NCBI GenBank assembly: GCA_934515035.1
Contig: CAKSXP010000007.1
Location: 1 to 19,138, forward strand
Length of the DNA: 19,138 nt
Origin: an uncultured Oscillospiraceae bacterium
GTDB lineage: Bacteria > Bacillota > Clostridia > Oscillospirales > Oscillospiraceae
Reading direction: 5' to 3'
Shown here in pieces: positions 1 to 13,933 of this stretch (position 1 is the first letter of the stretch; each line of letters opens with the position of its first letter). The position numbers were made by a program, and so were the translations under genes. The notes under the pieces were generated by a model, which saw only the letters and a list, made by a program, of their open reading frames with translations, was not told the origin of the DNA and did no database searches.

Positions 1-19
1 CTTGTAGATTGCTCTTCAT
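1..19 (-). CDS. Probable start of a downstream gene (partial)
   Basis: An ATG on the minus strand at 17-19 opens a frame (MKSNLQ...) that runs off the left edge. A strong Shine-Dalgarno sequence, GGAAGGAG, lies about 12 bases upstream. That spacing is a little long but acceptable. Only six codons are visible, so no product can be named. It would be the gene after the flavoenzyme operon, or its continuation. The AT-rich spacer and a possible promoter in front of it suggest it may have its own transcript. Confidence 0.4.
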
Positions 20-100
20 TTTTTGCTGTTTCTCCTTCCGAAATTAGGGTTTGTGCGTTCTGCTATGTTTTTTCGTCAATTTTCCATTGACTTTGTAAAA

Positions 101-129
101 ATTTTAGCACATAGCATAGATATTTAGAA
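101..129 (-). promoter_or_regulatory. Possible extended -10 promoter in the 1-159 spacer
   Basis: On the minus strand an extended -10 element TGCTAAAAT is read at 109-101. A weak -35 (TTCTAA, 3 of 6 consensus bases) lies at 129-124 with a 17-base spacer. It would drive the gene starting at position 19 with a leader of about 75 bases. The spacer is much more AT-rich than the flanking genes. It also contains nested inverted repeats, TGCTATGT/ACATAGCA (61-68, 109-116) and GTCAAT/ATTGAC (75-80, 86-91). No U-tract terminator was found for the gene ending at 160. Confidence 0.35.
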
Positions 130-159
130 ATTCAATTTACAGCTCCAGTTATATAAAAA

Positions 160-1602
160 TTAAATAGCTCCCGCGGCGTCCTCTCCCGCGAGATAACCGC
201 TCGTCATGGCCCAGCTCATCCCGGCTCCGCCCGGGCCGTAAAACTCGCTGACCCAGCCGGAGACATGGTCGCCGGTCACATACATGTTCCCGATCGCTTC
301 GCCCTCGGGCGTGACAGCCTGAAAGCTGCGGTTGACCGAGATGCCGCCCTGCGTGCTGTCCATGTCGCGGATGCAGTAGAGCACATAGTAGGGGCCGCCG
401 CCGATAGCCATCAGGTGCTGTGCGGGCTTGAGCAGGTGCTCGTCATATCCGGCGCGGCACGCGGCGTTATAGCGCTCTATCCCCGCGCGGAGAACGTCCT
501 CCCTGCATCCGATAAACTCTGCCGCGCCCCCGAGCGTATCCGTGATGCACAGCCAGCCGCGCTTTATCTCACTTGCGAACCGCCCGGCGAACTCTTCGGC
601 GCCGTAGGGGGGATCGCCCGCGTGCGCGTCGCTCCAGATCCTTTCGATGCCCTCTTTGTCATATATCTCATAGAGCACCTTTCCGGGGGAGCGGTTCGTC
701 AGCTCCTGCGCATCGCGGAATTTGGACTCGTCCATGACCCGCCTGCCGTGCTTGTTGACGATATAGCTGCGCGGGTCGATGCCGACGGGGAACAGCTTTG
801 AAAAGCGCCCGCCCGCATATGTCGGCCCCAGCAGGTGTATATTCATCGAGACCTCCGTCTCCGCGCCGAGCTCCGCCGCCATCGCGATGCCGTCGCCGAC
901 GCAGGTGCGCACGCCGCCGATGCGCAGATCGTCGCCCTTGACGAAATATTTCGGCAGATACCGCGCAAGAGACTCGTGACTCCCGCCGACGCCGCCGCAG
1001 GAGAGTATCAGCCTTTTGGAGTTGAAAACAAGGTTTTTCCCCTCGGCGTCCGAGCGTGCAGCAACGCCGCTGACGTTTCCCTCGGCGTCGGTAAGAAGCT
1101 TGACGGCTCTGGCCTGCATGAAGAAACGGACCTTCCCGCTCCGGCGGCATTGCTCGATCAGCTTGTCGCAGATGACCGCGCCGAGACGCGCCGCGCCGGT
1201 GCCGTCGTCATGCAGCTCGACATTGCGGGAGCAGTCGCTTTTGAACGGTCCCGCGTTTGCGGGCACCGGCTCCCACTCGATGCCGCGGCCCTCGAGCCAG
1301 CGCGCTATCGTCTTTGTGTTATAGAGGTAGCGCTTTATGATCTCGGGGTTCCCGGTGTTGTGCAGGGTGTCCATCGTGTTCCTGTAAAGCTTTTCGGCGT
1401 TTGCGTCCGTGCTGTAGTCGCCGTAATCGGAAAAATCGGAGGATATGAACGTCCGCGCGAGTCTGCCGTTGCCGCCGAGTATCTTCCCGGCTTCTATCAC
1501 GGCGATGCTGCCGTCCGTTATCTCCGAGGCGTGCGCCGCCGCGCACAGCCCGGATATTCCGCCGCCGACTACCACAATATCAAAGGAATATGCTTCGTTC
1601 AT
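160..1602 (-). CDS. FAD-dependent oxidoreductase, fumarate reductase flavoprotein-like
   Basis: A 480-residue soluble flavoprotein of the FAD_binding_2 family, which includes fumarate reductase, urocanate reductase and ketosteroid dehydrogenases. The N-terminal dinucleotide fold has GGGISG at residues 13-18, followed by the acidic EAGK and the GGNG motif that contacts FAD. The C-terminal FAD lid ends with GGISVN, YVTGD and GPGGAGMSWAMTSG. The segment GRRVMDESKFRD is placed where fumarate reductases carry a catalytic Arg in a (T)RD motif, so Arg-Asp here could be the proton-delivery residue; this is inferred. Unlike the first gene of the operon it has no ferredoxin domain, so its electrons must come from a partner or reduced flavin. 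SD AAGGAG lies 8 bases before the ATG. It is the last clear gene of the four-gene operon. The exact substrate cannot be read from sequence; reduction (or dehydrogenation) of a C=C bond conjugated to a carbonyl is the family-level expectation. Confidence 0.88.
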   Translation of the reverse strand: MNEAYSFDIVVVGGGISGLCAAAHASEITDGSIAVIEAGKILGGNGRLARTFISSDFSDYGDYSTDANAEKLYRNTMDTLHNTGNPEIIKRYLYNTKTIARWLEGRGIEWEPVPANAGPFKSDCSRNVELHDDGTGAARLGAVICDKLIEQCRRSGKVRFFMQARAVKLLTDAEGNVSGVAARSDAEGKNLVFNSKRLILSCGGVGGSHESLARYLPKYFVKGDDLRIGGVRTCVGDGIAMAAELGAETEVSMNIHLLGPTYAGGRFSKLFPVGIDPRSYIVNKHGRRVMDESKFRDAQELTNRSPGKVLYEIYDKEGIERIWSDAHAGDPPYGAEEFAGRFASEIKRGWLCITDTLGGAAEFIGCREDVLRAGIERYNAACRAGYDEHLLKPAQHLMAIGGGPYYVLYCIRDMDSTQGGISVNRSFQAVTPEGEAIGNMYVTGDHVSGWVSEFYGPGGAGMSWAMTSGYLAGEDAAGAI

Positions 1603-1618
1603 AGTTCTTGCTCCTTTT

Positions 1619-1654
1619 CGGCCGGTCAGAAGCGGGAGAACATCTGACCGGCCG
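1619..1654 (-). promoter_or_regulatory. Strong stem-loop directly before the ribosome binding site of the distal flavoprotein gene
   Basis: A perfect 12-bp inverted repeat: CGGCCGGTCAGA (1619-1630) and TCTGACCGGCCG (1643-1654), with a 12-base loop. On the minus-strand transcript it ends only four bases before the GGAG of the gene starting at 1602. No U-tract follows, so it is not a standard terminator. It may set transcript stability or processing, or tune translation of the last gene. A second, smaller repeat (CCGGA 1673-1677 / TCCGG 1683-1687) lies between it and the stop codon of the preceding gene. Confidence 0.65.
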
Positions 1655-1699
1655 GGACTTTGATCGTTCAGACCGGATATGCTCCGGCCACGCTATGAT

Positions 1700-3649
1700 T
1701 TATATGTCCAGCGCGCTGAAGTATGCGCTTCTGGAGGCCTCGCGCACGGTGGCGGGAGTGATGCAGTCGCCAAGAGGAATGACGTCCGGCGCGCAGAGGC
1801 GCAGCTGCTCGAACACCTCAAAGCGGGACTCGCGGCCGGAGGCAAGGACCACGCTGTCGCAGGGCAGGAACAGCTCCTCGCCGTCCTTCTTCACATACAC
1901 GCCCTCCTCCGTTATCTTCGTGCAGGGCGCTCCGGTCAGGGTCTGAACGCCGTATTTATAAAGATAGAAGTCGAGCGTCTGGTCGCGCTCCTTGTCCGGG
2001 TGCAGAACGGGGTTGCGGCCCGCGATGGTGACGGACTCCTTACCGATGTGCCTGAAGAAAAGCGCGCTCTCGCAGCCGTTGAGGTTGCCGCCGACTATAA
2101 CGATGTGCTCGCCGAGCTTTTCGGGCGCGGCATGAGCCTGCTCCGTCGTGAACACGTTCGCGCCCGTCACTCCCTCGATGGCGGGGATGCGGGTGCGGGA
2201 ACCGCTGGCAACGAAGATGACGTCGGGCTCGACCTGCTTCATGAGCTCCGGAGTGACCTCCGTGTTCAGGCAGACCCTGACATCTGACTTGCCGAGCTGA
2301 GTTATGAGATAGGTCTCATAATTGTGCAGGCGGCGTTTTATGTGGTTTCCGTTGGTGATCTTGAGCAGACCGCCCAGCTCGCCGGTCATTTCATAGAGGG
2401 TGACGTCATGGCCGCGCTGGGAGGCCGTTATCGCCGCCTGCATACCGGCCGGGCCGCCGCCGACGACAACGACCTTTTTCCTGACGGGAGCCTGCGGCAC
2501 CTGCTCCGGAACGCGGGCCTCGCGGCCGAAGCGCGGGTTTATGTCGCAGCCGATCATATGGGTGTGGTGCATGGCGTCAAGGCAGTGATAGCAGCCGATG
2601 CAGGTGCGGATATCCTCGTCCTGACCGCGCCGGGCCTTGTTGGGCAGCTCGGGATCCGCCATCAGCGGACGGCACATCGCAACGAAGTCCGCCTTTCCGG
2701 AGGCGATGACTTCCTCGGCAAAGGCCGCGTCATAGATCTGGCCGACGACGGCGACGGGGATGTTGATGCGTTCTCTGAGCGGGGCCGCGGCGGCAAGATT
2801 GCAGCCGGGATCATCAAGGTAGGACGGGAACATGTGGTTGGGCTTGGGCGTGCCGTCGTTCGTGGAGCGGTCCTCGCCGCCGGAGGAAACATGGATGATG
2901 TCCACCAGACCCTCAAGCGCATTGCACAGGGCGACCTGTTCCTCAAAGCCCCTGGGATCTGCCTCGGGCTCGATGCCGCTCACGCGGTATTCGATTATCA
3001 TGTCGTCCCCTGCGGCCTCGCGGCAGGCCTTACAGAGCTCCACGGAGAAACGCATGCGGTTCTCAAGGCTTCCGCCGTATTCGTCCGTGCGGTGGTTGGT
3101 CTCCTCGAGGAAGAACTGCATCGGCAGCCAGCCGTGCGCGCCGTGGATCGTTACCATCGTAAAGCCGCAGGTGCGCATTTTTGCAACGCACTCGGCGTAC
3201 ATGCCGATGACCTGCTGTATCTTCTCCTTCGTCATCTCGTGGACGACCTTTCCGTCATGCCCGATGAAGCCGTCCGGCCCGTAGCAGACGCCCTTGTGCC
3301 CATGAGTGTAAACGCCGCCGTAGTTGAGCTCGATGCTGGGCTGGCAGCCGTGCTGCCGGATGGCATGGGCAAACTCGGTCAGCGCGGCGGTGCCGTTGAG
3401 CCCGCGTATCTTGAAATAGAGTCCGAAGCCGTCGCTGTCCTCTTCTCCGACGTTCACCTCGGTGTGTCCGACGCAGATGGTCGCGGCTCCGCCCTTTGCA
3501 ATGTCCTCAAAGGCTTTGAGCGCATAGTCGAATATATAGTTGTCCTGCGAAAAGCCCCAGGCGCCGAGGGGCGCGCCGATTATGCGGTTTTTCAAAAGGA
3601 CGCTGCGTATCCTTACGGGTGTGAAAAGATTCTGATATTTGGGTTCCAT
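1700..3649 (-). CDS. Old-yellow-enzyme family NADH:flavin oxidoreductase / enoate reductase (2,4-dienoyl-CoA reductase type)
   Basis: A 649-residue three-domain flavoenzyme. Residues 1 to about 345 form an FMN-binding TIM barrel, with HGAHGWLPMQFF (169-180) and RTDEYGGS (187-194) as active-site signatures. A 4Fe-4S cluster site follows: C350, C353, C356, C368. The C-terminal half is an FAD/NAD(P) domain with GGGPAG at 397-402 and a second nucleotide fold at IVIVGGNLNG. Relatives include E. coli FadH, BaiCD/BaiH of bile-acid 7-dehydroxylation and clostridial enoate reductases, all of which reduce C=C bonds next to a carbonyl. Two departures are visible: Trp174 stands where classical members have the proton-donor Tyr, and the third cluster Cys is one residue closer than in FadH-like proteins as I recall them. 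AGGAGG lies 6 bases before the ATG. The family is clear; the substrate is unknown, and steroid, bile acid, enoate or plant aromatic are all possible. Confidence 0.92.
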   Translation of the reverse strand: MEPKYQNLFTPVRIRSVLLKNRIIGAPLGAWGFSQDNYIFDYALKAFEDIAKGGAATICVGHTEVNVGEEDSDGFGLYFKIRGLNGTAALTEFAHAIRQHGCQPSIELNYGGVYTHGHKGVCYGPDGFIGHDGKVVHEMTKEKIQQVIGMYAECVAKMRTCGFTMVTIHGAHGWLPMQFFLEETNHRTDEYGGSLENRMRFSVELCKACREAAGDDMIIEYRVSGIEPEADPRGFEEQVALCNALEGLVDIIHVSSGGEDRSTNDGTPKPNHMFPSYLDDPGCNLAAAAPLRERINIPVAVVGQIYDAAFAEEVIASGKADFVAMCRPLMADPELPNKARRGQDEDIRTCIGCYHCLDAMHHTHMIGCDINPRFGREARVPEQVPQAPVRKKVVVVGGGPAGMQAAITASQRGHDVTLYEMTGELGGLLKITNGNHIKRRLHNYETYLITQLGKSDVRVCLNTEVTPELMKQVEPDVIFVASGSRTRIPAIEGVTGANVFTTEQAHAAPEKLGEHIVIVGGNLNGCESALFFRHIGKESVTIAGRNPVLHPDKERDQTLDFYLYKYGVQTLTGAPCTKITEEGVYVKKDGEELFLPCDSVVLASGRESRFEVFEQLRLCAPDVIPLGDCITPATVREASRSAYFSALDI

Positions 3650-3675
3650 TGTTTCCTCCTGATTATTTTACCGGA

Positions 3676-3715
3676 ATGCCGGGGGACGCCTTCCGGCATC
3701 TCCCGGCCCCGATTT
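3676..3715. repeat. GC-rich stem-loop between solute-binding protein and enoate reductase genes
   Basis: The short spacer holds overlapping inverted repeats that cannot form together: ATGCCGG (3676-3682) with CCGGCAT (3693-3699), and GCCGGG (3678-3683) with CCCGGC (3702-3707). The run of six T at 3713-3718 lies on the plus-strand side. On the coding (minus) transcript no U-tract follows the stem. It therefore looks like a 3' stabiliser or a partial barrier after the binding-protein gene, not a full terminator of the operon. Confidence 0.5.
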
Positions 3716-3721
3716 TTTCCG

Positions 3722-5410
3722 TTATCTTGCAAGGTATCTCTCGTAGGCGGCCTGTTTGGCTGCCAGAAGCTCCTCAACGCCGAAGCTGTTTATCTTTTCG
3801 ATAAAGTCGCTGTATTCGCTCTCAAAATCGCCTCCGCCGAAAACGAGCCGTCCCATCGTCTCGTTGACGAGAGTGCAGATGTCGCTCTCGATCGTCGAAA
3901 CTCTCGCGCTCTCCTCGCCGGTGAGGCTGCCGTAATACTTGTGGCTGGCGTTTCTGTTCGCGCTCCAGATCTCGACCGCGTCAAGCTGCGCCTGGCTGTC
4001 GAGAGAGGCGAGCTTGCTCTCCACGCTGACGCGCGTCGGGCCGATGCAGACATTGACGTTCAGCGCGGTGGACTGGCTGAGGCCGTCGGGGTTGTTCAGA
4101 ACGAGGTCGGTGAACTCGTGGGAGCCGTCCGCTCCGTAATTGAAGGTAACGCCCTCTGCGCCGAAGCTGACGTATTCGGAGCCCTTTTCGGTGAAGAAAT
4201 AGTTCATATAGGACACCGCGAGTCCGGGATCGTCGCAGCCGGTGGTCACCGAGTAGTCGAACATGGCCTCGCCGCCGGAGGAACGGAGCTTGAACACTCC
4301 GTCGGGATTCCATTCCTCGCTCATCAGCTCGGGCACGGCGACCATATTGAAGTCGGGGTTCTGAGCCTGAGCCTTCAGGGAGTCGGCGAGATAGTTCGTT
4401 CCGCCGCCGACGGCGAAAGCGACCTCGTCGTTAAGGATGTTGCCCTGTATCTCTCTTGCGTTGTTGACGGAAAGGCACGCATCGGTGAGCAGCCCCTCCT
4501 CATACCATGTGCGCAGCATCTGAACATAGGCCTTCCACTGGGGAAGCGTTGCGGAGAGCTGGACCTCTCCCGCGTCGTTGACCTGATAGTTCAGCTCGCC
4601 GGGGGTCCTGTCAACGCAGACGTCATAGCCGCCGCTGAAGGAATCATAGGTCCCCGCAAGGGTCCATGCTCCCATCCAGGTGTTCTTTGTGTTGAACTCG
4701 GTCTTGATGGCGGTGAGCGCGTCGTGCAGCTCGTCATAGGTCGTCGGGACCTCCATGCCGACCGCGTCGAGCATATCCTTGCGTATCGTGGAGCCCTCGA
4801 GCGTCACGCCCGCAGGGGACATGCCGTACATTCCGATAACGTTGCCGGAATCGGACTTTGTGGCTTTATAGAACTCGGGATATTCCTGGCACAGCGCCCA
4901 GTAATCCGGTGCGTACTCAGGCAGAAGGGGATCGATGTTCACGCAGACCTCTTCCTCGACCAGCGCGTCGATGCCGCCGGGGTAGAAGAACGACGCCAGC
5001 GCTATTATGTCGGGATATTCCGCGCTCGCTATCATGATGTTCATCATCTGGATATACTGGTCCATCTCGTAAGCCACATAGTTGACGTACACGCCGGTGT
5101 TTTCAACTACCTGCTTTGTGGCCTCGTTTCCGTTCCAGAGCTTGTCGGACATCGCCGCGATAACGTCGCCGCTGCCGCCGTACCACAGCTCCAGCTCAGC
5201 GGTCTCCTCGCTGAGGGGATAGGTGACGCCTTCGGGCTCATCCGCGGGCGCGTCCGGTCCGGTACCGGGTCCCTCCGCGGGCCCGGCGGGAGCTTCCGCC
5301 GCGGGTCCCTCCGTGGGCTTATCCGACGGCTTATCCGCAGTGTTTCCGCAGCCGGCCGCGAATGACAGCAGCATCACGAGCGCGGTCAGCAGTGCCAGAG
5401 TCTTTTTCAT
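3722..5410 (-). CDS. Extracellular solute-binding lipoprotein (ABC-type, family 1-like)
   Basis: A 562-residue exported lipoprotein. The start at 5410 is preferred over the longer open frame because GGAGG lies just upstream and the sequence then begins with a proper signal peptide: MKKT, a hydrophobic core, and AAGC with lipid-accepting Cys21. A linker of about 40 residues rich in Pro, Gly, Ala, Asp and Glu follows. The mature part resembles the large clostridial solute-binding proteins of the LplA/YtcQ kind, with segments such as YPDIIAL, YGMSP, RKDMLDAVG and a Trp/Tyr-rich cleft. It would capture a ligand outside the membrane for uptake or sensing. No permease or ATPase gene is adjacent within the window, unless the gene starting at 19 is one. 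It sits 40 bases after the ferredoxin-flavoprotein gene and before the enoate reductase gene. The ligand, possibly the substrate of the flavoenzymes or a conjugate of it, is not readable. Confidence 0.88.
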   Translation of the reverse strand: MKKTLALLTALVMLLSFAAGCGNTADKPSDKPTEGPAAEAPAGPAEGPGTGPDAPADEPEGVTYPLSEETAELELWYGGSGDVIAAMSDKLWNGNEATKQVVENTGVYVNYVAYEMDQYIQMMNIMIASAEYPDIIALASFFYPGGIDALVEEEVCVNIDPLLPEYAPDYWALCQEYPEFYKATKSDSGNVIGMYGMSPAGVTLEGSTIRKDMLDAVGMEVPTTYDELHDALTAIKTEFNTKNTWMGAWTLAGTYDSFSGGYDVCVDRTPGELNYQVNDAGEVQLSATLPQWKAYVQMLRTWYEEGLLTDACLSVNNAREIQGNILNDEVAFAVGGGTNYLADSLKAQAQNPDFNMVAVPELMSEEWNPDGVFKLRSSGGEAMFDYSVTTGCDDPGLAVSYMNYFFTEKGSEYVSFGAEGVTFNYGADGSHEFTDLVLNNPDGLSQSTALNVNVCIGPTRVSVESKLASLDSQAQLDAVEIWSANRNASHKYYGSLTGEESARVSTIESDICTLVNETMGRLVFGGGDFESEYSDFIEKINSFGVEELLAAKQAAYERYLAR

Positions 5411-5433
5411 TGCTTTTCCTCCTTCTATTTTTT

Positions 5434-5448
5434 CTCTGCCCCGCAGAG
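5434..5448 (-). repeat. Small stem-loop between the first two operon genes
   Basis: CTCTGC (5434-5439) and GCAGAG (5443-5448) form a 6-bp stem with a 3-base loop. It sits between the stop of the ferredoxin-flavoprotein gene and the SD of the binding-protein gene. On the minus strand it is followed by A-rich sequence, so it is not a terminator. It may be an RNA processing or stability element that allows high expression of the binding protein. Confidence 0.3.
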
Positions 5449-5450
5449 TG

Positions 5451-7133
5451 TTATTGCGCAAGAAATTCGATCGCGTTCTCCGCGCAGAGATAACCGCTCG
5501 CCATGGCCCAGGCACAGTCGCCGAACTTGTTCATGAAGTCCTGCGTCACAAGCCCGCGGCAGCAGTCTCCCGCGACGAACAGGCTCTCTATGGAGCTTCC
5601 GTCTGCGCGGACGGCGTTCAGGTTCGTGTCGTTGAGTATGCCGCCCATCGTCGTTTCGTTGAATCGGGAGAGATAGCAGGCATAGAACGGGGCCTTCACA
5701 AGCGGGACGAGCTGGGAGCGGTCCTTGCCGAAGTCGGCGTCCTCGCCCTTTTCACAGAAGGCGTTGTATCTGTTCATCTCGTCCATGAACTCCCCGGCGG
5801 GAACTCCGATAAGCTCTGCCAGTTCCTCGAGCGTATCGGCCTTTTTCGCCGCGAGGTCAAAGGTCGTTTCCTCCTCGAGCTGCTCGCGCCAGGATTCAAA
5901 GCCCCTGCGCACAACGGGGTCGGAAGCCGTTTCGACCAGCCTTTTTCCCATGATCTCCGCGGTGTTTGAATCCAGTATCGCCCAGCCCGCGTGGCCGGGC
6001 AGAGCCTCCATCGCGCCGAGGACCTCAACGCTCATCTTTCCCTCGTTGCGGAACCTGCGGCCCCGCAGATCGATATCCACGGTCTCCGGCTGTTCGACGA
6101 GCCGGACAACGCCGTAATGGAACGGGTGATGCGTCGGGCCGAACATCGGAACGCGGACGTTTTCCCAGTCCATGACGCCGCCGGCCCCGGCGACGAGCGC
6201 CACGCCGTCGCCCGTGTTGGAAGCGACGGTAAAACTGTGGACCTCCGCCTCCTCGAAAAAGCTGGGGCGGAGCTTATCCATAAGCTCGCGGCTGCGGGAG
6301 AAGCCTCCCGTGGCGACGATGCAGGCGCGGGTCCTTATCCCGATCTCCCCGCCGGGATCGCGCGCCGTAACTCCGCATATTTCGCCCTTTTCGTCCGTGT
6401 GCAGCTGCACGGCGGCCGTCTCGCGGAGTATCGTGACTCCCGCTCCGCGGGCAAACTCCTCCAGCTTCTTGACGGCGAAGGTGGTCTGCCAGCCGGGCCC
6501 CATCGAATGGTCGGTGCTCTTGAGATTATCGCCCACGCGGTTCGGAAATTCGATTATGTATTCGCCCGCGTCCGGCCCGTGCTCCATTTTGAACATCTCG
6601 AAATATTCCTCATATCCGCCGAGACTGAACAGGAAGTCGCACATGTCGCAGAGCGCATACTGCGCGTCGCGGATGAGCTGTGCGTCGAGCTCCGGACTGA
6701 TGCTTATCAGTTCCTCGATAAACTTCTCGCGTCCGTCGGGCAGTCCGGCCTTTTCGTGCATGCTGCTGTATTTCGCGGACTTTGCAAAGCCGTGGGCAAG
6801 GGTCGTGTTGCCGCCGCATTTCGGTCCCTTTTCGAGCAGGACCACGCGGTTTTTCGAGCTTCTGGCCAGCTTCGCGGCCGCAGTCAGTCCCGCTCCGCCG
6901 CCGCCGATGACAACGACGTCGCAGTCAATGAAGATCTTTTCATGCTTCTGCGGAGCCGGGGCCCCGGTGTCTCTGATGATGCCGCTCGGACAGACCTCCG
7001 CGCATTTTCCGCATTCTATGCACTTCGACTGGTCGATCGCATAGTCTCTGCCGGCAAAGCCTATCGCGTGGACGGGACATTCATTGTAGCAGTAATGGCA
7101 GGTCGAACAGTTTTCGCCTATCACATATGGCAT
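5451..7133 (-). CDS. Ferredoxin-domain FAD-dependent oxidoreductase (fumarate/urocanate reductase-like)
   Basis: A 560-residue fusion of a bacterial-type 2x[4Fe-4S] ferredoxin domain and an FAD_binding_2 flavoprotein. The cluster ligands are C9, C12, C15, C19 (CSTCHYCYNECP) and C38, C41, C44, C48 (CIECGKCAEVCP). The FAD fold starts with GGGGAG at 77-82, then EKGPKCGGNT. The C-terminal lid is MGGILNDTNL, VAGDCC and CAWAMASGYLCAENA. The architecture implies electrons entering through the clusters and being passed to FAD for reduction of an unsaturated acid or ketone in the cytoplasm; no signal peptide is present. The region aligned with the fumarate reductase Arg loop reads GRRFRNEGKMSVEVL and lacks a clear Arg-Asp pair, so the substrate is probably not a simple C4 dicarboxylate. 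AAGGAGG lies 9 bases before the ATG. It is the promoter-proximal gene of the operon, facing the AraC gene across a 267-bp intergenic region. Confidence 0.88.
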   Translation of the reverse strand: MPYVIGENCSTCHYCYNECPVHAIGFAGRDYAIDQSKCIECGKCAEVCPSGIIRDTGAPAPQKHEKIFIDCDVVVIGGGGAGLTAAAKLARSSKNRVVLLEKGPKCGGNTTLAHGFAKSAKYSSMHEKAGLPDGREKFIEELISISPELDAQLIRDAQYALCDMCDFLFSLGGYEEYFEMFKMEHGPDAGEYIIEFPNRVGDNLKSTDHSMGPGWQTTFAVKKLEEFARGAGVTILRETAAVQLHTDEKGEICGVTARDPGGEIGIRTRACIVATGGFSRSRELMDKLRPSFFEEAEVHSFTVASNTGDGVALVAGAGGVMDWENVRVPMFGPTHHPFHYGVVRLVEQPETVDIDLRGRRFRNEGKMSVEVLGAMEALPGHAGWAILDSNTAEIMGKRLVETASDPVVRRGFESWREQLEEETTFDLAAKKADTLEELAELIGVPAGEFMDEMNRYNAFCEKGEDADFGKDRSQLVPLVKAPFYACYLSRFNETTMGGILNDTNLNAVRADGSSIESLFVAGDCCRGLVTQDFMNKFGDCAWAMASGYLCAENAIEFLAQ

Positions 7134-7173
7134 GGTGTACCCCCTCCTTACAAATATCTGTGTATGCGTTTAC

Positions 7174-7202
7174 AGGTTAACAGAGACCGTTTTCAAGGGC
7201 AA
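7174..7202 (-). promoter_or_regulatory. Weak candidate promoter for the flavoenzyme operon
   Basis: On the minus strand TTGCCC (7202-7197), a 17-base spacer and an extended -10 TGT-TAACCT (-10 at 7179-7174) sit about 40 bases upstream of the start codon. The match is poor at -10 (3 of 6). That fits a promoter that needs an activator, and the dyad at 7231-7250 lies about 70 bases upstream of the predicted start of transcription. The assignment is tentative. Confidence 0.3.
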
Positions 7203-7210
7203 TGAGCTGA

Positions 7211-7250
7211 TTTTCACCCCGTTTTCACGACTGTGCAAATTTTTGCGCAG
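7211..7250. promoter_or_regulatory. Candidate regulator-binding region: TTTTCAC repeats plus CTGTGCAAA dyad
   Basis: Two direct TTTTCAC repeats (7211-7217, 7222-7228) are followed by the imperfect palindrome CTGTGCAAATTTTTGCGCAG (7231-7250). The 13 bases CTGTGCAAATTTT recur in inverse orientation at 9734-9746, upstream of the LysR gene, again next to TTTTCAC. A further half-site CTGCGCA lies at 7271-7277. The position between the divergent operon and AraC promoters fits an operator for the LysR or AraC protein. Confidence 0.6.
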
Positions 7251-7311
7251 TCCGCTCCGCGAAACGGGACCTGCGCATTTTTTTGTGAGTGGTGCATTAT
7301 TTGCCGTTTGA

Positions 7312-7341
7312 TTGACGAAGCTCCGCATCGTGTGATATAAT
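7312..7341 (+). promoter_or_regulatory. Strong sigma-A promoter of the AraC regulator gene
   Basis: TTGACG (7312-7317), an 18-base spacer and TATAAT (7336-7341) with an extended TGA directly before it (TGATATAAT). It predicts transcription from about 7348 and a leader of about 50 bases before the ATG at 7401. The near-consensus form suggests steady expression of the regulator, in contrast to the weak divergent promoter. Confidence 0.85.
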
Positions 7342-7400
7342 TTTTGTATAAATTACACGGCTAAGCTGATGAGAGCCGAACTGAATAAGAGGCGTTTCTT

Positions 7401-8675
7401 ATGGATATACGTTCTCCGTCCGGGAGCGGCGGCATCCGCCCGTCCCGCAACTTTTATATGTCCAAATATATCTCCCGGCTCCTGCACGACAGCTTCTGCA
7501 TCGCTTCAAACAGCTTCATGGCGCCCATGGCCGCGGGAGACATGATGGCGGGCAGGGGCCCTTTTTCGCTCATGCTCTTTTATCAGGACCGCTTCGCTCC
7601 CCAGATGTCGATATTCGGCAGCAGCGAGCTGGCCGCCGCCAACTTCACCGACGATCTGTCGGACGCCCTGAACGAAAAAATGACCGCCTTCGTCTCGGAG
7701 GTGGACGGCTTCACCGTGGCCATCGCCTTCCTGCCGCAGGAATATATATCCGGGGACGACGGCGATGACCGGTTCTGCCAGCTCTGCCGGGACATCGCGC
7801 TCCCGCTCATAGAGCGCGCAGACCGGGAGGATATGATACGCTTCCGCTGTCTTTACCTCGGGCCGATAACCTCCCTCGGGACCCTGGCCGCGAGCTATGA
7901 CCTGATCCACGGCGTCTGGGAGTTCCGCAAGTTTTTCCTGGGTCTTCTGCCCTCCCCGGTCTTTACGCGGGTAAACGGAACGCCCGTCGAGGCCCACGAA
8001 AACAGCGAGGAATACTGCGCGCGCTCCATGCGCAGGCTCTGCCAGCTCCTTAAGGAGGACACCAAGGAACAGACGCTCGAATACGCAAGCGAGGTCATGG
8101 AGCATATCTTCACGCTCGAGCCGCAGACCTTCACCGGGCTGCGCATAAACCTTCAGTGTCTGTGCACGACCCTGCGCTGGACGCTGATGACAAACAGCAT
8201 CACCATAGCCGACGGCTTCGGACAATATTCCGCCAGCATCATCCGGGCGGTAAACCACAACCAGCTGCGCCGGAACTTCGCCGACTGCATCGAGACGCTC
8301 TATGACGACTACCGCAGCCAGCCGTCCCGGACGCAGATGGAGGACATCGTCGAATACATCGACGAGAACCTCCAGGAGCAGTGGCTGTCCGTCCAGTCCG
8401 TGTCGGACAGGTTCGGGATAAGCCCGTCCCTCCTCTCAACCCAGTTCAAGCTGCGCACAGGTCAGTGCCCGATAGACTATATCCACACAAAAAGGATGGA
8501 GCTTGCGGTCGATTATCTGCGCGAGACGGATATGAGCATACGCGATATCTCCATAAAGGTCGGATACGGCAGCATCGCAACAATGAACCGTTCCTTCCGC
8601 AACTACGCCGGGGTAACTCCCTCGTGGATACGCCAGCACTCGAAAAACAACACCGGCGGAGAACGAACGAAATAA
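7401..8675 (+). CDS. AraC family transcriptional regulator, YesN-like with N-terminal sensory region
   Basis: A 424-residue cytoplasmic regulator and the only plus-strand gene. The C-terminal 100 residues form the double helix-turn-helix of the AraC/XylS family: VQSVSDRFGISPSLLSTQFK, then DISIKVGYGSIATMNRSFR and YAGVTPSWIRQ. The first 300 residues are not a cupin. The stretch around FRCLYLGPITSLGTLAASYD followed by EFRKFF resembles the degenerate GGDEF-like middle domain of YesN-type regulators (IGIS...SLxxLxxSYxxA...RFF). No membrane helices are seen. The start at 7401 has a modest SD (AAGAGG, 8 bases away); a second ATG at codon 20 has no SD. It is transcribed divergently from the flavoenzyme operon and is the natural candidate for its activator, perhaps responding to the imported compound. 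The regulator assignment is firm; the target and ligand are inferred. Confidence 0.9.
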   Translation: MDIRSPSGSGGIRPSRNFYMSKYISRLLHDSFCIASNSFMAPMAAGDMMAGRGPFSLMLFYQDRFAPQMSIFGSSELAAANFTDDLSDALNEKMTAFVSEVDGFTVAIAFLPQEYISGDDGDDRFCQLCRDIALPLIERADREDMIRFRCLYLGPITSLGTLAASYDLIHGVWEFRKFFLGLLPSPVFTRVNGTPVEAHENSEEYCARSMRRLCQLLKEDTKEQTLEYASEVMEHIFTLEPQTFTGLRINLQCLCTTLRWTLMTNSITIADGFGQYSASIIRAVNHNQLRRNFADCIETLYDDYRSQPSRTQMEDIVEYIDENLQEQWLSVQSVSDRFGISPSLLSTQFKLRTGQCPIDYIHTKRMELAVDYLRETDMSIRDISIKVGYGSIATMNRSFRNYAGVTPSWIRQHSKNNTGGERTK

Positions 8676-8676
8676 C

Positions 8677-8725
8677 AAAAAAGAGAGCCTGCCGGGAAGC
8701 TTTTCCCGGCAGGCTCTCTTTTTTT
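8677..8725. terminator. Bidirectional terminator between AraC and LysR genes
   Basis: A perfect 18-bp stem (8681-8698 with 8703-8720) and a GCTT loop, flanked by an A-run on the left and a T-run on the right. It serves both converging genes. The stop codon of the LysR gene (8724-8726) lies inside the T-run. No space is left for another gene here. Confidence 0.95.
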
Positions 8726-9644
8726 ATTCTACGCTCAGGTTCCTCCATGGGCAGCGCTCCGGCGCGCCCTTTTCCGCCGTGCTTTGCAGAAGCCTTGCAA
8801 GCTCGCGCGGCACCGGGGAATTGTCGTCCGCCCGGCAGACGAGCGCCTGACGGGAGCTCATTCTATCCGAATCCGGCGGCGGGAATGAGGGCAGCACCAC
8901 GATGCCCTCCGGCTCCGTAAAGCAGGTGGAAGGGAACATCGCGATCCCCAGATTTGCCGCGACCATCTCCATCGTAGCGGAAACATCCTTGGCCACGATC
9001 TGGCGGCAGCGCTCCGGCGCGCCGCCCATCACCTGGTGCCGCGCCTCGACCTGGGCAAAAGTTATGACCTTTTCGCCCTCGATCTCCTTCTGTCCGACAA
9101 AGCCCGGCCAGTCGGCAAGACGGTGGTTCTTCGAGACATACACTGCCGAGCGCGTACCGCCGAGGTCATAATATTTCAGATCATCATACATCGTGTTGAA
9201 CGGATCGATAAACAGAGCCGCGTCAAGGCTCTTCGACAGCAGGCGCGTGTGAAGGTCGTCCTCCGGCTCTACATGCTCGAGCAGAAAATCGATCTCCGGA
9301 TGCAGCTCCGCAAGCTCGCTCACGGCCTGCTGGAACAGAGAGCCGTTGCAGAAAAGCGAATAGCCGATCGTGAACACCGGCCTTACCGGAGAGAGCTTGA
9401 GCAGATTCTCCGCGCGGTCCACAAGGTCTATGGCAAGCTTTATGTCGCGGTAGATCATCTTTCCGGCGCCCGTTATGCTGACCGATTTCGTGGAGCGCTC
9501 GAACAGCTCGACGCCCAGTTCCTTTTCAAGCGACTTTATCTGGTAGGTGATCGACGTCTGCGACACATAAAGGCGCTCGGCGACTCTGGTAAAATTGAGC
9601 TCCTCGGCAAGCGCAACAAAGCATCTCAGCTGCATCAGCGTCAT
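8724..9644 (-). CDS. LysR family transcriptional regulator
   Basis: A 306-residue LysR-type regulator. Residues 1-60 hold the winged helix-turn-helix: LRCFVALAEELNFTRVAERL, VSQTSITYQIKSLEKELG and ELFERS. A linker helix and a two-lobe periplasmic-binding-protein-like effector domain (residues 90-295) follow. GGGAGG lies 10 bases upstream of the ATG. Its own promoter (9699-9727) is bordered by a dyad whose 13-bp core also appears upstream of the flavoenzyme operon, so it probably autoregulates and also controls that operon. It is separated from the upstream CoA-transferase gene by a strong terminator, so the two are not cotranscribed. The effector is unknown. Family assignment is secure; the regulon is inferred from the shared site. 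Confidence 0.92.
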   Translation of the reverse strand: MTLMQLRCFVALAEELNFTRVAERLYVSQTSITYQIKSLEKELGVELFERSTKSVSITGAGKMIYRDIKLAIDLVDRAENLLKLSPVRPVFTIGYSLFCNGSLFQQAVSELAELHPEIDFLLEHVEPEDDLHTRLLSKSLDAALFIDPFNTMYDDLKYYDLGGTRSAVYVSKNHRLADWPGFVGQKEIEGEKVITFAQVEARHQVMGGAPERCRQIVAKDVSATMEMVAANLGIAMFPSTCFTEPEGIVVLPSFPPPDSDRMSSRQALVCRADDNSPVPRELARLLQSTAEKGAPERCPWRNLSVE

Positions 9645-9698
9645 TTTCCCGTTACCTCCCGCAAAAATATATTATTTTTCCATTCTGCATCGGATATT

Positions 9699-9727
9699 AT
9701 TATACGCAAAGCGGCGGTGTATTACAA
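9699..9727 (-). promoter_or_regulatory. LysR gene promoter
   Basis: On the minus strand TTGTAA (9727-9722), a 17-base spacer and a perfect TATAAT (9704-9699). Predicted transcription starts near 9692, giving a leader of about 48 bases before the ATG at 9644. Confidence 0.75.
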
Positions 9728-9728
9728 T

Positions 9729-9753
9729 CTGTGAAAATTTGCACAGTTTTCAC
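9729..9753. promoter_or_regulatory. Operator-like dyad upstream of the LysR gene
   Basis: CTGTGAAAATTTGCACAG (9729-9746) is a dyad with CTGTG/CACAG ends. It overlaps a second perfect dyad GTGAAAA (9731-9737) / TTTTCAC (9747-9753). The bases 9734-9746 are the exact reverse complement of 7231-7243. The site abuts the -35 box of the LysR promoter, as expected for autoregulation in this family. Confidence 0.65.
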
Positions 9754-9783
9754 CTTTCTTCGCGCTTTGCGGAAAACCCGCGG

Positions 9784-9822
9784 GAAAAACAAACACCGGC
9801 GGATGCATAACGCATCCGCCGG
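9784..9822 (-). terminator. Terminator of the CoA-transferase gene
   Basis: A perfect 11-bp stem CCGGCGGATGC (9796-9806) / GCATCCGCCGG (9812-9822) with a 5-base loop. On the minus strand it is followed by TGTTTGTTTTT. The 47 bases between stem and gene are a pyrimidine-rich tract on the coding strand with no further gene. Confidence 0.92.
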
Positions 9823-9869
9823 CGCCGGTAAAAAAGAAATGAAAAAAAGAAAAAAAGAATGGACAAAGA

Positions 9870-11165
9870 TTAAATATATCCCAGCTCGCGGGCCTCGCTG
9901 CGCAGTTGGTCCCGCACGGAGGGGTGCGCGATCTCTATAAGCGCGGCGGCACGCTGGCCCACCGTGCGCCCGCGCAGACGTGCAATGCCGTACTCCGTTA
10001 CGATATAGTCAACGTGATTGCGCGAGACCGAGACGACGGAGCCCGGCGTCAGCGTGCTTTTGATCTTTGAAACGCCCTTGCGCGTCATGGATTCAAACGC
10101 GAATATGCCCTTTCCTCCCTTTGAGTGCAGCGCGCCGACCGCATAATCGTCGCCGCCGCCGGTTCCGGAAAACTGCATCGGGCCTATACTTTCCGCGTTG
10201 ACCTGACCCGTCAGGTCGATCTCCATAAGCGTATTGACGGAGACCATATTGTCGTTCGCCGCAATTATGACCGGGTCGTTGGCATAGCTGGCCGGTACAA
10301 GCTTGCAGGCGGGATTTGTCGAAAACACCCGGTAAAGATTCTCATCGCCGAGAACAAAGGTCGCAAGGTGCAGTCCCGTGTTCAGGTTTTTTGCCTTGCC
10401 GGTTATGACGCCCATGTCAACAAGCCGCGCCATGTTCGCCGAGAACATCTCGCTGTGTACGCCGAGGTCGTTCTTATCCTTCAGGTGCTCGCCGATCGCA
10501 TTCGGAAGTCCGCCAAGGCCGAGCTGTATGCAGTCGCCGTCGTTTATGAGCGAGGCGACGTTTGTCCCGATCACCTCGTCAAGCTCCGTGACCTTGAATT
10601 CCGGCAGGCAGAACAGCGGCTCATTGACCTCGTAAAGCATATCCACTCGCTCGATCGGAATGCGGCAGCCGCCGTTCGTGGGCGCATACTTCGGGTTTGT
10701 GTTGACCTCGCAGATGATATGGCTGGCGTTTTTCATCGCGTCAAGCTCAAACATCTGGCAATACGGAACGCAAAGTTCGCCGTTCTCGTCCATCGTCGTG
10801 GTCCGCGCCCAGAATATTTTGTCCGGACTGACCTCGCTTCTTATCGCCATGAAGTTATGCAGATCGCTCGGCAGATAGGCGCAGATCCCGTTGTTAAAGC
10901 CCTCCCGCAGATTGTCCGCGAAAAAATGCCCTATCGTATCCACTCTGCCCTTCATTGACGGATCCCTCAGGTAGGGATAGGACCCGTCGCGGCTTTTATG
11001 CAGCGTGACGCCTTCAACATTCTTCGCCAGGTCCTGGATGCGATTGAGAAAAACGGCCGGCTCGCAGGCCGCGCCGGAGACGATTATGCTGTCTCCGTTC
11101 TGAACAAAGGCCATACATTCCTCAAGCGTGTGCAGCCTGGCTTTATACTGTTCTGTAATATCCAT
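9870..11165 (-). CDS. Acetyl-CoA hydrolase/transferase family CoA-transferase (4-hydroxybutyrate or butyrate:acetate type)
   Basis: A 431-residue class I CoA-transferase, one chain holding both halves of the fold. Recognisable parts are GLGGLPNAIG (residues 216-225), the catalytic glutamate E239 in LGVHSEMF, and GTGGGDDYAVGA and GIARLRGRT near the C-terminus. It moves CoA between acyl-CoA and a free acid, usually acetate, in clostridial butyrate or 4-hydroxybutyrate fermentation. The start at 11165 is chosen because AGGAG lies about 7 bases upstream and it matches the family N-terminus; a longer frame begins at 11207 but overlaps the promoter. It has its own strong promoter and terminator, so it is monocistronic. 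It could activate acids as CoA thioesters for the nearby enoate-reductase-like pathway, but this is speculative. The exact acyl substrate cannot be set from sequence alone. Confidence 0.9.
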   Translation of the reverse strand: MDITEQYKARLHTLEECMAFVQNGDSIIVSGAACEPAVFLNRIQDLAKNVEGVTLHKSRDGSYPYLRDPSMKGRVDTIGHFFADNLREGFNNGICAYLPSDLHNFMAIRSEVSPDKIFWARTTTMDENGELCVPYCQMFELDAMKNASHIICEVNTNPKYAPTNGGCRIPIERVDMLYEVNEPLFCLPEFKVTELDEVIGTNVASLINDGDCIQLGLGGLPNAIGEHLKDKNDLGVHSEMFSANMARLVDMGVITGKAKNLNTGLHLATFVLGDENLYRVFSTNPACKLVPASYANDPVIIAANDNMVSVNTLMEIDLTGQVNAESIGPMQFSGTGGGDDYAVGALHSKGGKGIFAFESMTRKGVSKIKSTLTPGSVVSVSRNHVDYIVTEYGIARLRGRTVGQRAAALIEIAHPSVRDQLRSEARELGYI

Positions 11166-11193
11166 AAGCAGCTCCTTTTTTTTTGACAGGAAA

Positions 11194-11223
11194 ATTATAA
11201 GCCCCACCGCATCGCCAAGTCAA
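11194..11223 (-). promoter_or_regulatory. Promoter of the CoA-transferase gene
   Basis: On the minus strand TTGACT (11223-11218), an 18-base spacer and TATAAT (11199-11194). The start codon at 11165 follows a very short leader containing AAAAAAAAAGGAG. A strong constitutive-type promoter. Confidence 0.88.
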
Positions 11224-11256
11224 TCCGCTAAATTGTTCATTCAAAATACGAATAAT

Positions 11257-11297
11257 AAAAAGCGCATTGATAGACAAATTCTATCAATGCGCTTTTT
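11257..11297 (-). terminator. Terminator overlapping the end of the radical SAM gene
   Basis: A perfect 17-bp stem (11257-11273 with 11281-11297) and a 7-base loop, with TTTTTATTATT on the minus-strand exit side. The upstream arm lies inside the last codons of the radical SAM gene, whose stop is at 11284-11286. It closes the two-gene unit, leaving no room for a downstream precursor gene. Confidence 0.93.
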
Positions 11298-12402
11298 CCT
11301 GCATCAGCCGCACGGTCTCCCGCGCCATCCGGCAGAGATACTCCGGACGCTTGTCGAACGCGCCCGTCTCCGTTACGCACATCGCCGCGCACAGGTGGCA
11401 AAGCTCCCTGTGCCCGCAGGATGAGCACACGGCGGGCAGCCTTATCGCAGCGGCAGCCGCCTTCGTCCGCTCCCACGCCTCGGAAAAACCCAGCTCCGGC
11501 ACGGACGCGGCGGGAAAGTTCATCATGCCGCAGGGGGTCATATTTCCCTGCCAGTTGATCCAGAACGAGCTTCGCCCGGCGCGGCACATGACTCCCTCGC
11601 CGGGGGTGCCGTCGCAGGCGTCGCAGTCCGCCGGGAAATCCCCCCGGCATATGCGCCCGGCACGCAGCCGGAACTCCTCCGGCGAAAGACGTATACGGTC
11701 CCACTCGACGGCATAGCGCGCCGCATCCTCCGCCGTGAAGCGGTCGCCGCCTCCGGCAAGGCTCTCGTCGCGGCGTATGGGCGGGAACATATAGGTCGTC
11801 AGCTGCATCGGAATGCCCTGCTCCCGGGCAAAGTCATATATCGCGCGCATGTCGTCCCTGTTATACGGCGTTATCGATGCGTTCAGCTTGACCCCGACGC
11901 CGATCTCGCGCAGCGCGCGTATGCTCCCGGCAACGCGGTCATAGACCGGTCTGCCGCACAGCCTTTCATAGGTTTCCGCGCTGCCTCCGTAAAGCGTTAT
12001 GTTGAAGCGGAAGGGCGGCTCCTTTTTGAAAAATTCCAGCCAGTCATCGTCTATCAGCGAGGCGTTGGAGTTGACCGAGACGAGAATGCCCATCTTTTTC
12101 AGCTCCGTGAGAATATGACGGAAATCCGGCCTTATCAGCGGTTCGCCGCCCGTCAGAAGCAGAAACAGCATCCCCTGCGAGCGCGCCTGTTCCGCTATGG
12201 CGAGCCATTCGTCCGCCGTCAGCTCGCGCCCGCGCGCCTGCTGCTCCTGCGCCGAAAGCCGGACATAGCACATTTTGCAGTTCAGGTTGCAGCGCGCGGT
12301 CAGCTCAAACGTCCCGGCCAGCGGGATGCCCCCGGCGCAGGCCTTTGCGTGCAGATAGGCCGAGAGCCGGGGCTCGGAACCCGTGTATTCCATATCAGAC
12401 AT
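11284..12402 (-). CDS. Radical SAM/SPASM domain protein
   Basis: A 372-residue radical SAM enzyme. The SAM-cluster ligands are C38, C42, C45 in CNLNCKMC, and LLTGGEPLIRPDF (GGEP motif) follows. The C-terminal third is a Cys-rich SPASM-type region for auxiliary clusters: CRGDFPADCDACDG, CRAG, then ITPC-like MTPCGMMNFPA, CSSCGHRELCHLCAAMC and a final C near the end. This is the layout of PqqE/AlbA/anSME-like enzymes that modify peptides or proteins, though some members act in heme or cofactor pathways. Its start overlaps the end of the HPrK-like gene by 8 bases (12395-12402), so translation is probably coupled. No PqqD-like peptide-binding domain is obvious in the chain. The family is secure; the substrate is unknown. 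Confidence 0.92.
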   Translation of the reverse strand: MSDMEYTGSEPRLSAYLHAKACAGGIPLAGTFELTARCNLNCKMCYVRLSAQEQQARGRELTADEWLAIAEQARSQGMLFLLLTGGEPLIRPDFRHILTELKKMGILVSVNSNASLIDDDWLEFFKKEPPFRFNITLYGGSAETYERLCGRPVYDRVAGSIRALREIGVGVKLNASITPYNRDDMRAIYDFAREQGIPMQLTTYMFPPIRRDESLAGGGDRFTAEDAARYAVEWDRIRLSPEEFRLRAGRICRGDFPADCDACDGTPGEGVMCRAGRSSFWINWQGNMTPCGMMNFPAASVPELGFSEAWERTKAAAAAIRLPAVCSSCGHRELCHLCAAMCVTETGAFDKRPEYLCRMARETVRLMQEKAH

Positions 12403-13204: not shown

Positions 13205-13237
13205 TACTCATCATGGCCTTTCCGATAAAATCAAAAG

Positions 13238-13267
13238 TGTTCCCCGGGGCAAATGCCCCGGGGAACA
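13238..13267 (-). terminator. Stem-loop after the nitroreductase gene (terminator or attenuator)
   Basis: A perfect 13-bp stem (13238-13250 with 13255-13267) and an AAAT loop. On the minus strand it is followed by CTTTTGATTTTAT, an interrupted U-tract. The HPrK-like gene begins only 34 bases further on, with no promoter visible in between. Leaky termination here may set the level of the two-gene unit. Confidence 0.75.
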
Positions 13268-13300
13268 TTATCTCACACATATCCGTTCATTTCAAGGCCA

Positions 13301-13834: not shown

Positions 13835-13858
13835 GTTATTTACCTCTTTCCATCTGCC

Positions 13859-13881
13859 GCGGGCGGCCTGAACCGGCCCGC
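13859..13881 (-). repeat. GC-rich inverted repeat in the nitroreductase leader
   Basis: GCGGGC (13859-13864) and GCCCGC (13876-13881) can pair in the 5' leader of the nitroreductase mRNA, upstream of its SD. This may be a simple leader hairpin; no known riboswitch pattern was recognised. Confidence 0.35.
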
Positions 13882-13903
13882 CGATATAGTTTGTATGCTA
13901 ATG

Positions 13904-13933
13904 ATTATAGCACTCCGCCGGCTCTTTTGTCAA
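13904..13933 (-). promoter_or_regulatory. Near-perfect promoter of the nitroreductase gene
   Basis: On the minus strand TTGACA (13933-13928), an 18-base spacer and TATAAT (13909-13904), with TGC before the -10 (extended -10). Transcription would start near 13897, giving a leader of about 60 bases. This is the best sigma-A match in the window. Confidence 0.92.

Follow-up and report, generated by a model that had tools for sequence, protein, structure and literature searches.

The 19,138 nt stretch of DNA described here, termed the window, comprises positions 1 to 19,138 (forward strand) of contig CAKSXP010000007.1 in assembly GCA_934515035.1, from an uncultured Oscillospiraceae bacterium. It carries four genes on the minus strand that run from position 7133 to position 160 in the order Fd-FAD, SBP, OYE and FAD2 (Table 1). 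These encode a flavoenzyme fused to a ferredoxin domain, a solute-binding protein (SBP) of the lipoprotein type, an enoate-reductase-type enzyme, and a second flavoenzyme. A preliminary description had placed four co-directional genes here, and the four-gene operon is confirmed: all reading frames are open, the coordinates agree, and the genes are separated by gaps of 40, 72 and 97 bp (Fd-FAD/SBP, SBP/OYE, OYE/FAD2) with a GGAG-type ribosome site before each. The domain content given earlier also stands, i.e. Fer4 plus FAD_binding_2 in Fd-FAD, SBP_bac_8/SBP_bac_1 in the SBP, Oxidored_FMN plus Pyr_redox_2 in OYE, and FAD_binding_2 in FAD2. A consensus scan for terminator-like sites (12 found in all, 8.7 expected) places none within the operon on the minus strand. 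Lacking a T-run, the hairpins in the gaps on either side of OYE suggest elements of message stability rather than terminators.

Table 1. Positions of the operon genes and of other features in the window
Feature	Position	Strand	Basis or remark
Fd-FAD: N-terminal 2[4Fe-4S] ferredoxin domain fused to FAD_binding_2 flavoenzyme, 560 aa	5451..7133	-	open reading frame (ORF), domains
SBP: family-1 solute-binding lipoprotein, AlgQ2-like, 562 aa, lipobox Cys21	3722..5410	-	ORF, domains, model
OYE: FMN/4Fe-4S/FAD enoate-reductase-type enzyme, 649 aa, H169/H172 pair, cysteine cluster in 350-368	1700..3649	-	
FAD2: second FAD_binding_2 flavoenzyme, no ferredoxin domain, 480 aa	160..1602	-	ORF, domains
Hairpin in SBP-OYE gap	3650..3721	-	-31.3 kcal/mol, z -3.5, no T-run
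Hairpin in OYE-FAD2 gap	1603..1699	-	12-nt perfect arms, -41.6 kcal/mol, z -4.0, no T-run
Start of a further co-directional gene that leaves the sequence	1..19	-	ATG after GGAAGGAG, at about position 19
Divergent AraC-family regulator, 424 aa	7401..8675	+	match to AraC profile F7, E 4e-50
Promoter-like site before AraC, TTGACG-18-TATAAT, 11/12	7312..7341	+	scan: 3 sites vs 2.9 by chance
Butyryl-CoA:acetate CoA-transferase-like gene	9870..11207	-	224 bits, under cut-off 675

The lipoprotein matches PF01547 and PF13416 with 44.5 and 57.1 bits (gathering scores 26 and 27). Its N-terminus is hydrophobic and Cys21 is unchanged in all nine aligned sequences; it is a family-1 extracellular SBP with a lipoprotein signal. 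Solved relatives by sequence are 5gub, AlgQ2, AlgQ1 and the 5g5y group. An AlphaFold2 model (pLDDT 76.6) gives TM values of 0.62-0.67 by query length over the best 13 structures, all of them AlgQ1, AlgQ2 or the glycosaminoglycan/chondroitin-disaccharide binder; FusA comes next. Thus the best structural matches of the predicted fold are oligosaccharide binders.

A scan of 390 genomes of the GTDB family of locus L001 (Oscillospiraceae) with the window SBP shows 8 genomes with matches at E<=1e-40. Five of these, G034, G062, G125, G187 and G236, display 72, 50, 27, 45 and 31 SBP matches, respectively (E<=1e-8), as well as 48, 42, 24, 33 and 26 matches to OYE (E<=1e-25) and 17, 26, 14, 15 and 6 of the Fd-FAD type (E<=1e-15), some of them fragmented. 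G034 and G187 are sisters, with identities of 91-100% in 18 of their 20 reciprocal SBP pairs and of 63 and 80% in the other two, and are counted as one lineage. Around the SBPs of the five genomes, 115 loci were analyzed, consisting of 15 of 20 first-round loci and 100 of 115 further planned regions; the 15 regions left out are in G236 (9) and G187 (6). The loci hold 149 SBP genes (57 in G034, 43 in G062, 25 in G187, 20 in G125 and 4 in G236). Genome G168 (27 SBP candidates; loci L072, L075 and L076) and the loci of G323 and G369 were left out of the counts. In a FastTree phylogeny of 179 SBPs rooted on two permease-linked SBPs, the window SBP falls inside the orphan SBP set. It joins the relatives P0001-P0004 (89, 70, 55 and 38% identity), and next to these a G062:C31 SBP that adjoins SnoaL-type genes (support 0.957). 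The five genomes show an orphan SBP expansion, i.e. many paralogues that lack membrane partners.

As the preliminary description had stated, no permease gene adjoins the SBP in the window, although another gene opens at about position 19 and continues beyond the edge of the window. The relative loci were searched with LplB and YtcP profiles, made from two sequences each out of L073 and L074. L073 shows BPD_transp_1 and glycosyl hydrolase family 2 domains (Pfam), and the L074 permeases were assigned by resemblance. The codon-model gene caller under-calls (829 genes in 1.33 Mb), and permeases and gene densities were determined again on six-frame ORFs. An LplB/YtcP-type permease pair is found in one of the 115 loci, at G187:C37, with BPD_transp_1 in both genes. 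Thus hardly any of the 149 SBPs has a permease of its own at hand, with the proviso that distant permease types could escape the profiles. BPD_transp_1 is also missing from the two Pfam lists of the immediate neighbors (first 25 families each), which reach down to families with 2 members. These results bear on the possibility that the SBP belongs to an ordinary carbohydrate ABC importer, the cognate LplB/YtcP-type permease of which lies just outside the window, with the reductases part of the same catabolic operon or accidental neighbors. The SBP family is that of carbohydrate importers, the gene that begins at position 19 could be such a neighbor, and in G323 and G369 (loci L073 and L074) an SBP with 23-24% identity stands beside two permease genes and large enzyme genes, which is a canonical importer arrangement. 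However, the single pair in 115 loci around the 149 closer SBPs runs with a LacI gene and a different lipoprotein gene (482 residues, no Pfam match). Two window-type SBPs lie there on the other strand, though the nearer of these is 0.8 kb away. An ordinary importer is considered unlikely.

The genes that stand beside the SBPs include flavoenzymes. Pfam scans were made, in two halves and with the first 25 families listed for each, of 196 of the 207 immediate non-SBP neighbors (<=700 aa). They show DAO in 31, FAD_binding_2 in 29, Oxidored_FMN in 14, SnoaL_4 in 13, HTH_18 (AraC) in 13 and LysR in 10; FAD_binding_2 also matches the C-terminal halves of OYE proteins, so these counts overlap. The commonest families among the immediate neighbors are FAD families. 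An OYE or FAD gene is found at ±1 of 33 of the 149 SBPs. When operon-like spacing is asked for (same strand, <350 bp), 21 SBPs have a flavoenzyme neighbor, compared with a mean of 9.7 when the 59 flavoenzyme labels are redealt over the non-SBP genes within the loci of the same genomes (0 of 1000 permutations reach 21). In a loose OYE set 5 of 40 genes have no proper FMN domain (one that was checked is GltD-like), and the strict set used here leaves the counts of 33 and 21, as well as that at ±2 given below, unchanged. Coordinates, which cover 150 of 225 SBP places and 150 of 173 OYE places, place the flavoenzyme midpoint within 1.5 kb of a listed SBP in 22 of 213 cases (7.3 expected from coverage, binomial p 5e-6) and within 6.5 kb in 55 (23.5 expected, p 1e-9), the clumping of these genes making both p-values too small. 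Control contigs were selected to be free of listed SBPs or OYE, so that they understate the densities of OYE and FAD genes, which do not count as evidence here.

The closest parallel to the window is G062:C12:29673-36926, where one directon consists of an Fd-FAD, a FAD2-type gene, an SBP and another Fd-FAD. The FAD2-type protein has 48% identity to FAD2 over the whole length, the SBP 27%, and the two Fd-FADs 28 and 30%. A second directon of the same contig, G062:C12:16293-24056, carries an Fd-FAD (36%), a GltD-like protein, an SBP (28%) and an OYE (31%). The part of this contig that was read (14-62 kb) contains 7 SBP, 10 FAD, 5 SnoaL and 3 OYE-labeled genes, one of the last being GltD-like. 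In G034:C45, SBP-OYE is found twice in tandem. Some linked pairs are also conserved between genomes, e.g. OYE-LysR-SBP in G034 and G125 (81/76/71% identity) and FAD-SBP in G125 and G187 (86/83%). Of the co-occurrence that the preliminary description had asked for across relatives, that of the SBP type with flavoenzymes is thus seen in other genomes. A NifH-family ATPase (Fer4_NifH, E 2e-125) is present in a run with SBP and OYE genes (L060:16027-16857, i.e. G034:C45:25026-25856).

The reading that we prefer, with a probability of roughly 0.5, is that the operon represents one cassette of a capture-and-reduce repertoire, in which orphan SBPs would work with a remote or shared permease and with cytoplasmic reductases. 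A dedicated capture-and-reduce pathway had been suggested earlier for the window; it is now partly supported, at the level of a recurrent genomic association, by the operon-like spacing and by the near-absence of the LplB/YtcP pair. Several results weigh against the reading. The exact four-gene set was read in the window alone. No flavoenzyme is found at ±1 of 116 of the 149 SBPs, and 111 of 133 SBP directons contain none (22 contain one). At ±2 genes the excess is modest, with 48 SBPs next to a flavoenzyme compared with 36.1 in the permutation (9 of 1000 reach 48), or 48 compared with 38.9 in an earlier permutation of the loose OYE set (56 of 2000). There is no excess at the shortest distance, with 1 of 213 flavoenzyme midpoints within 500 bp of a listed SBP (2.6 expected), and by coordinates 17 of 150 listed SBPs have a flavoenzyme within 500 bp. 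Outside the G034-G187 comparison, 9 of 35 reciprocal SBP pairs share any neighbor and 4 share a flavoenzyme; of all 55 reciprocal pairs between genomes, 27 have no common neighbor within 3 genes. OYE homologues (about 40% identity) in 10 of 10 loci from 10 genomes of the family show no SBP or FAD partner by tblastn with the window proteins, and no glycosidase is recognised in the window.

Part of this evidence would fit a co-expansion that has no functional meaning, whereby SBPs, flavoenzymes and SnoaL genes pile up in the same accessory islands and become adjacent by density alone. The loci are rich in all three families, and, besides the modest excess at ±2 and the majority of SBPs with no flavoenzyme neighbor, the other families display no clear attraction to the SBPs by the same permutation (±2). 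SnoaL genes, which occur in triplet clumps, are below expectation (27 compared with 41.1), and beta-helix (13 and 12.6), LysR (13 and 9.9) and AraC7 genes (11 and 8.2) are not clearly above it. However, operon-like flavoenzyme adjacency is twice the within-locus expectation, and some linked pairs persist in diverged genomes (those of G034/G125 and G125/G187 above). Density alone is considered an improbable explanation, about on a par with the ordinary importer.

Somewhat less probable still is that the SBP is the extracellular part of a sensor that reports the substrate, the substrate itself entering by another route. The AraC and LysR domains in the immediate neighbors point in this direction, and PMC5994714 discusses orphan SBPs of the TTT family in such terms. 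However, a direct lipoprotein signal to the AraC-family regulator of the window is hard to see, as this protein displays no membrane segment by simple hydropathy, and histidine kinase families are absent from the first 25 Pfam families listed for each half of the neighbors.

The flavoenzymes themselves belong to known superfamilies, and among the best 25 NCBIfam models listed per enzyme, of more families matched, none reaches its cut-off for Fd-FAD, OYE or FAD2. OYE matches Oxidored_FMN (PF00724) with 173.2 bits (gathering score 27) and Pyr_redox_2 with 100.9 bits, and has a four-cysteine cluster (C350, C353, C356, C368); it is a member of the OYE superfamily with 4Fe-4S and FAD domains, nearest in the PDB to 2,4-dienoyl-CoA reductase and NCR. 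Its top NCBIfam models are BaiCD (NF041087, bile-acid flavoenzyme) with 351.6 bits and a cut-off of 825, bilirubin reductase, long form (NF045599), with 340.3 and 750, and mycofactocin OYE 2 with 338.6 and 793, so that neither a BaiCD nor a bilirubin reductase assignment is tenable. As the other two models score nearly as high, the match to BaiCD appears to be at the superfamily level. Fd-FAD carries two C-x2-C-x2-C-x3-C motifs, C9-C19 and C38-C48. For Fd-FAD and FAD2, respectively, the flavocytochrome c subfamily (TIGR01813) gives 151.1 and 116.8 bits (285.45 required), tricarballylate dehydrogenase TcuA (NF006130) 102.7 and 122.9 (369 required), and 3-ketosteroid dehydrogenase 138.2 and 82.6 (NF009478, cut-off 789) or 129.4 and 67.4 (NF005882, cut-off 788). 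The model of vinyl phenol reductase VprA (NF053717) gives 138.4 and 115.8 bits with the two enzymes (600 required). HMMER alignments place Arg296 of FAD2 and Ser368 of Fd-FAD in the NE-x3-R column common to urocanate and fumarate reductases, the arginine of which we take to be catalytic in flavocytochrome c/fumarate reductase.

Membership in steroid or bile-acid enzyme families is not borne out, and a reductive pathway of the BaiCD or KSTD type is very improbable: BaiCD is the nearest model of OYE and ketosteroid dehydrogenase models match Fd-FAD and FAD2, but all of these scores are far under the cut-offs and the bilirubin reductase and mycofactocin models nearly equal BaiCD.

Simple hydropathy reveals neither a leader nor a membrane segment in Fd-FAD, OYE or FAD2, and no hydrophobic stretch of the kind present in the SBP. 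FAD2 scores 2.08 under the 14-residue rule, and this peak is read as its dinucleotide-binding strand. In the relatives the rule is passed by 0 of 24 FAD and 0 of 40 OYE-labeled genes, and by 139 of 149 SBPs. The preliminary description had also offered an anaerobic respiration-like use of an organic electron acceptor. This part is weakly supported, since enzymes that show no leader or membrane segment suggest at most a cytoplasmic electron sink.

Returning to capture and reduction, from the gene content, order and domains, the recurrent SBP-flavoenzyme pairing and the near-absence of adjoining LplB/YtcP-type permeases we infer the following for the transport, ligand, electron donors, reaction order, regulation and purpose of the cassette. 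The lipoprotein would bind an extracellular compound, most likely one with a sugar or other glycan-like part, because the predicted SBP fold is that of oligosaccharide binders. The compound would be passed to an ABC permease encoded elsewhere, possibly common to several binding proteins. In the cytoplasm Fd-FAD, the NAD(P)H-type OYE and FAD2 would reduce the compound, or its aglycone, at activated C=C bonds, the electrons of Fd-FAD passing through the 2[4Fe-4S] domain, and the reduction would dispose of reducing power. The AraC-family regulator probably controls the operon. In two genomes a GltD-like protein (Fer4_20 plus Pyr_redox_2) directly follows Fd-FAD (L126:4286-5755; L011:5992-7437), and this is a possible NAD(P)H input for the enzyme. 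A GH3 glycosidase (one representative), BKACE and a MaoC-like (FAS1_DH_region) protein are also found near sister SBPs and would fit glycosides of plant compounds.

A wider version of this proposal is offered only tentatively. A lineage of Oscillospiraceae may hold dozens of capture-and-convert cassettes. Each would pair an orphan lipoprotein of the oligosaccharide-binder fold, tuned to a single conjugate from plant or host, with flavin reductases (or with SnoaL, GH3 or BKACE enzymes) for that compound, and all of them would use one or a few shared permeases. Such a repertoire would parallel the Bug receptors in Gram-positive anaerobes and would widen the range of organic electron acceptors.

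Several known systems resemble parts of the operon. The AlgQ2-type carbohydrate ABC importers share the SBP fold and family, but in the window and in 114 of the 115 relative loci the LplB/YtcP-type permease is missing and the partners are redox enzymes. Flavocytochrome c, urocanate reductase, TcuA and vinyl phenol reductase share the FAD_binding_2 fold of Fd-FAD and FAD2; however, the cut-offs listed above are not reached, and the Arg present in FAD2 and the solved reductases is replaced by Ser368 in Fd-FAD, which also carries the 2[4Fe-4S] domain. In the equol operon (daidzein and tetrahydrodaidzein reductases) an OYE and a fumarate-reductase-like enzyme act in sequence on a plant aglycone, a likeness by description only, and to our knowledge that operon has no SBP. 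BaiCD/BaiH and steroid 5beta-reductases (PMC12238238), bilirubin reductase and 2,4-dienoyl-CoA reductase have the domain architecture of OYE, which differs from BaiCD and bilirubin reductase in its scores (340-352 bits, cut-offs 750-825) and its gene neighborhood. For the orphan SBPs, PMC5994714 describes a similar situation in the Bug/TctC (TTT) SBPs of Bordetella, Cupriavidus and Rhodoplanes. There are dozens to hundreds per genome, mostly lacking membrane partners, often beside regulators and some in tandem; a single Rhodoplanes genome carries 434 SBPs of the TTT family, and orphan SBPs are described in Bordetella. Those SBPs belong to another superfamily and transporter class and to Proteobacteria, whereas the family-1 lipoproteins described here are found in Oscillospiraceae-related genomes with flavin enzymes as neighbors.

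The operon is thus a combination of known kinds, an orphan SBP expansion and a flavin reductase operon, not found described in that combination. The earlier remark that this exact gene set is not recognised as a described system holds in our literature searches, mostly outside subscription journals, where no paper on this set, or on family-1 orphan SBPs with flavin reductases, was found. We know of no uptake step for many of the gut reductions of dietary and host compounds, and of no substrate for many flavin reductases of these bacteria. If the pairing is functional, the ligand of each lipoprotein could be determined with the purified protein, and this would reveal what the adjoining enzymes act on. 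It would also represent a Gram-positive orphan-SBP expansion tied to redox enzymes, of a kind that the literature searches did not find described, and would bear on the number of receptors that one ABC permease can serve.

Fd-FAD relatives have 99, 82, 81 and 62% identity and OYE relatives 100, 87 and 58%. Clusters P0002 (SBP, 70%) and P0028 (Fd-FAD, 81%) have two members on two contigs each, and since their longest contigs are of equal length (39,014 bp), this suggests that the two genes adjoin on one contig of a relative. P0002 ends early, at 416 residues, as though the contig stopped there. Among the best 120 OYE clusters listed, none shares a longest contig of 39,014 bp. Profile scans with Fd-FAD show matches in 2 of 400 genomes of the family (E<=1e-130), 1 of 394 of the order and 1 of 391 of the class (E<=1e-120), with G001 among the matches in all three, and genus scans in 1 of 2, 1 of 35 and 1 of 1 genomes. 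As close Fd-FAD relatives are rare, the gene context was taken from SBP-centred searches. A scan of viral contigs found no relative, and among the best 10 of 252 plasmid records matches have only 24-27% identity.

A second branch of Fd-FAD is represented by L001 (48% identity), L002 (45%) and L013 (46%), found by profile scan. In L001 and L002 a lipoprotein SBP of family 5 lies near the gene, together with an Opp-type transporter, and in L002 three SnoaL-type genes, two matching PF13577 and the third with no Pfam match, are situated between Fd-FAD and SBP/Opp. L013 is a 3.9-kb contig with Fd-FAD and a divergent AraC gene. Thus Fd-FAD enzymes sit near capture lipoproteins of two superfamilies, in a small number of cases. 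The window itself carries an Opp-type transporter at 14.9-18.7 kb, 7.7 kb upstream of the operon (ABC_tran/oligo_HPY and BPD_transp_1 domains). Oligopeptide-type (Opp) transporters normally partner family-5 SBPs.

The AraC profile F7 that matches the window regulator was built from genes near the SBPs of relatives. Homologues of the window CoA-transferase (41-47% identity) are also present in SBP loci of relatives. In G001 (L035:9325-15663) two OYE genes (33-35%) have as neighbor a CoA-transferase with 44% identity to that of the window; an Opp transporter lies about 14 kb away and Fd-FAD at a distance of 20-25 kb.

SnoaL-like genes (240-300 aa), often in triplets, are found near SBPs or Fd-FAD at L002:3279-5681, L057:1-2198, G187:C50 (L170-L172) and G034:C60 (L098). 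There are 73 such places in the 1.33 Mb of SBP loci and 1 in 273 kb of the biased control contigs, and within the loci they are not closer to SBPs than other genes. Right-handed beta-helix proteins are also found beside SBPs, some with Gly-Gly-Pro-rich linkers (G034:C58:12945-14417, in L096; L070:4910-6415). The linkers occur in several other proteins as well, a weak signal (40 of 829 genes compared with 3 of 147 in the control).

Elsewhere in the window, a radical SAM/SPASM protein overlaps the start of a gene run at 11284-13204, which resembles a peptide-modification pair; the partner product is HPr-kinase-like by eye and has no Pfam match. The product of 14033-14917 has a hydrophobic end and a C-terminal 5′-nucleotidase domain alone, and its gene overlaps the end of the Opp genes. 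A long two-way terminator-like stem (8678-8723) lies between the convergent AraC and LysR genes.

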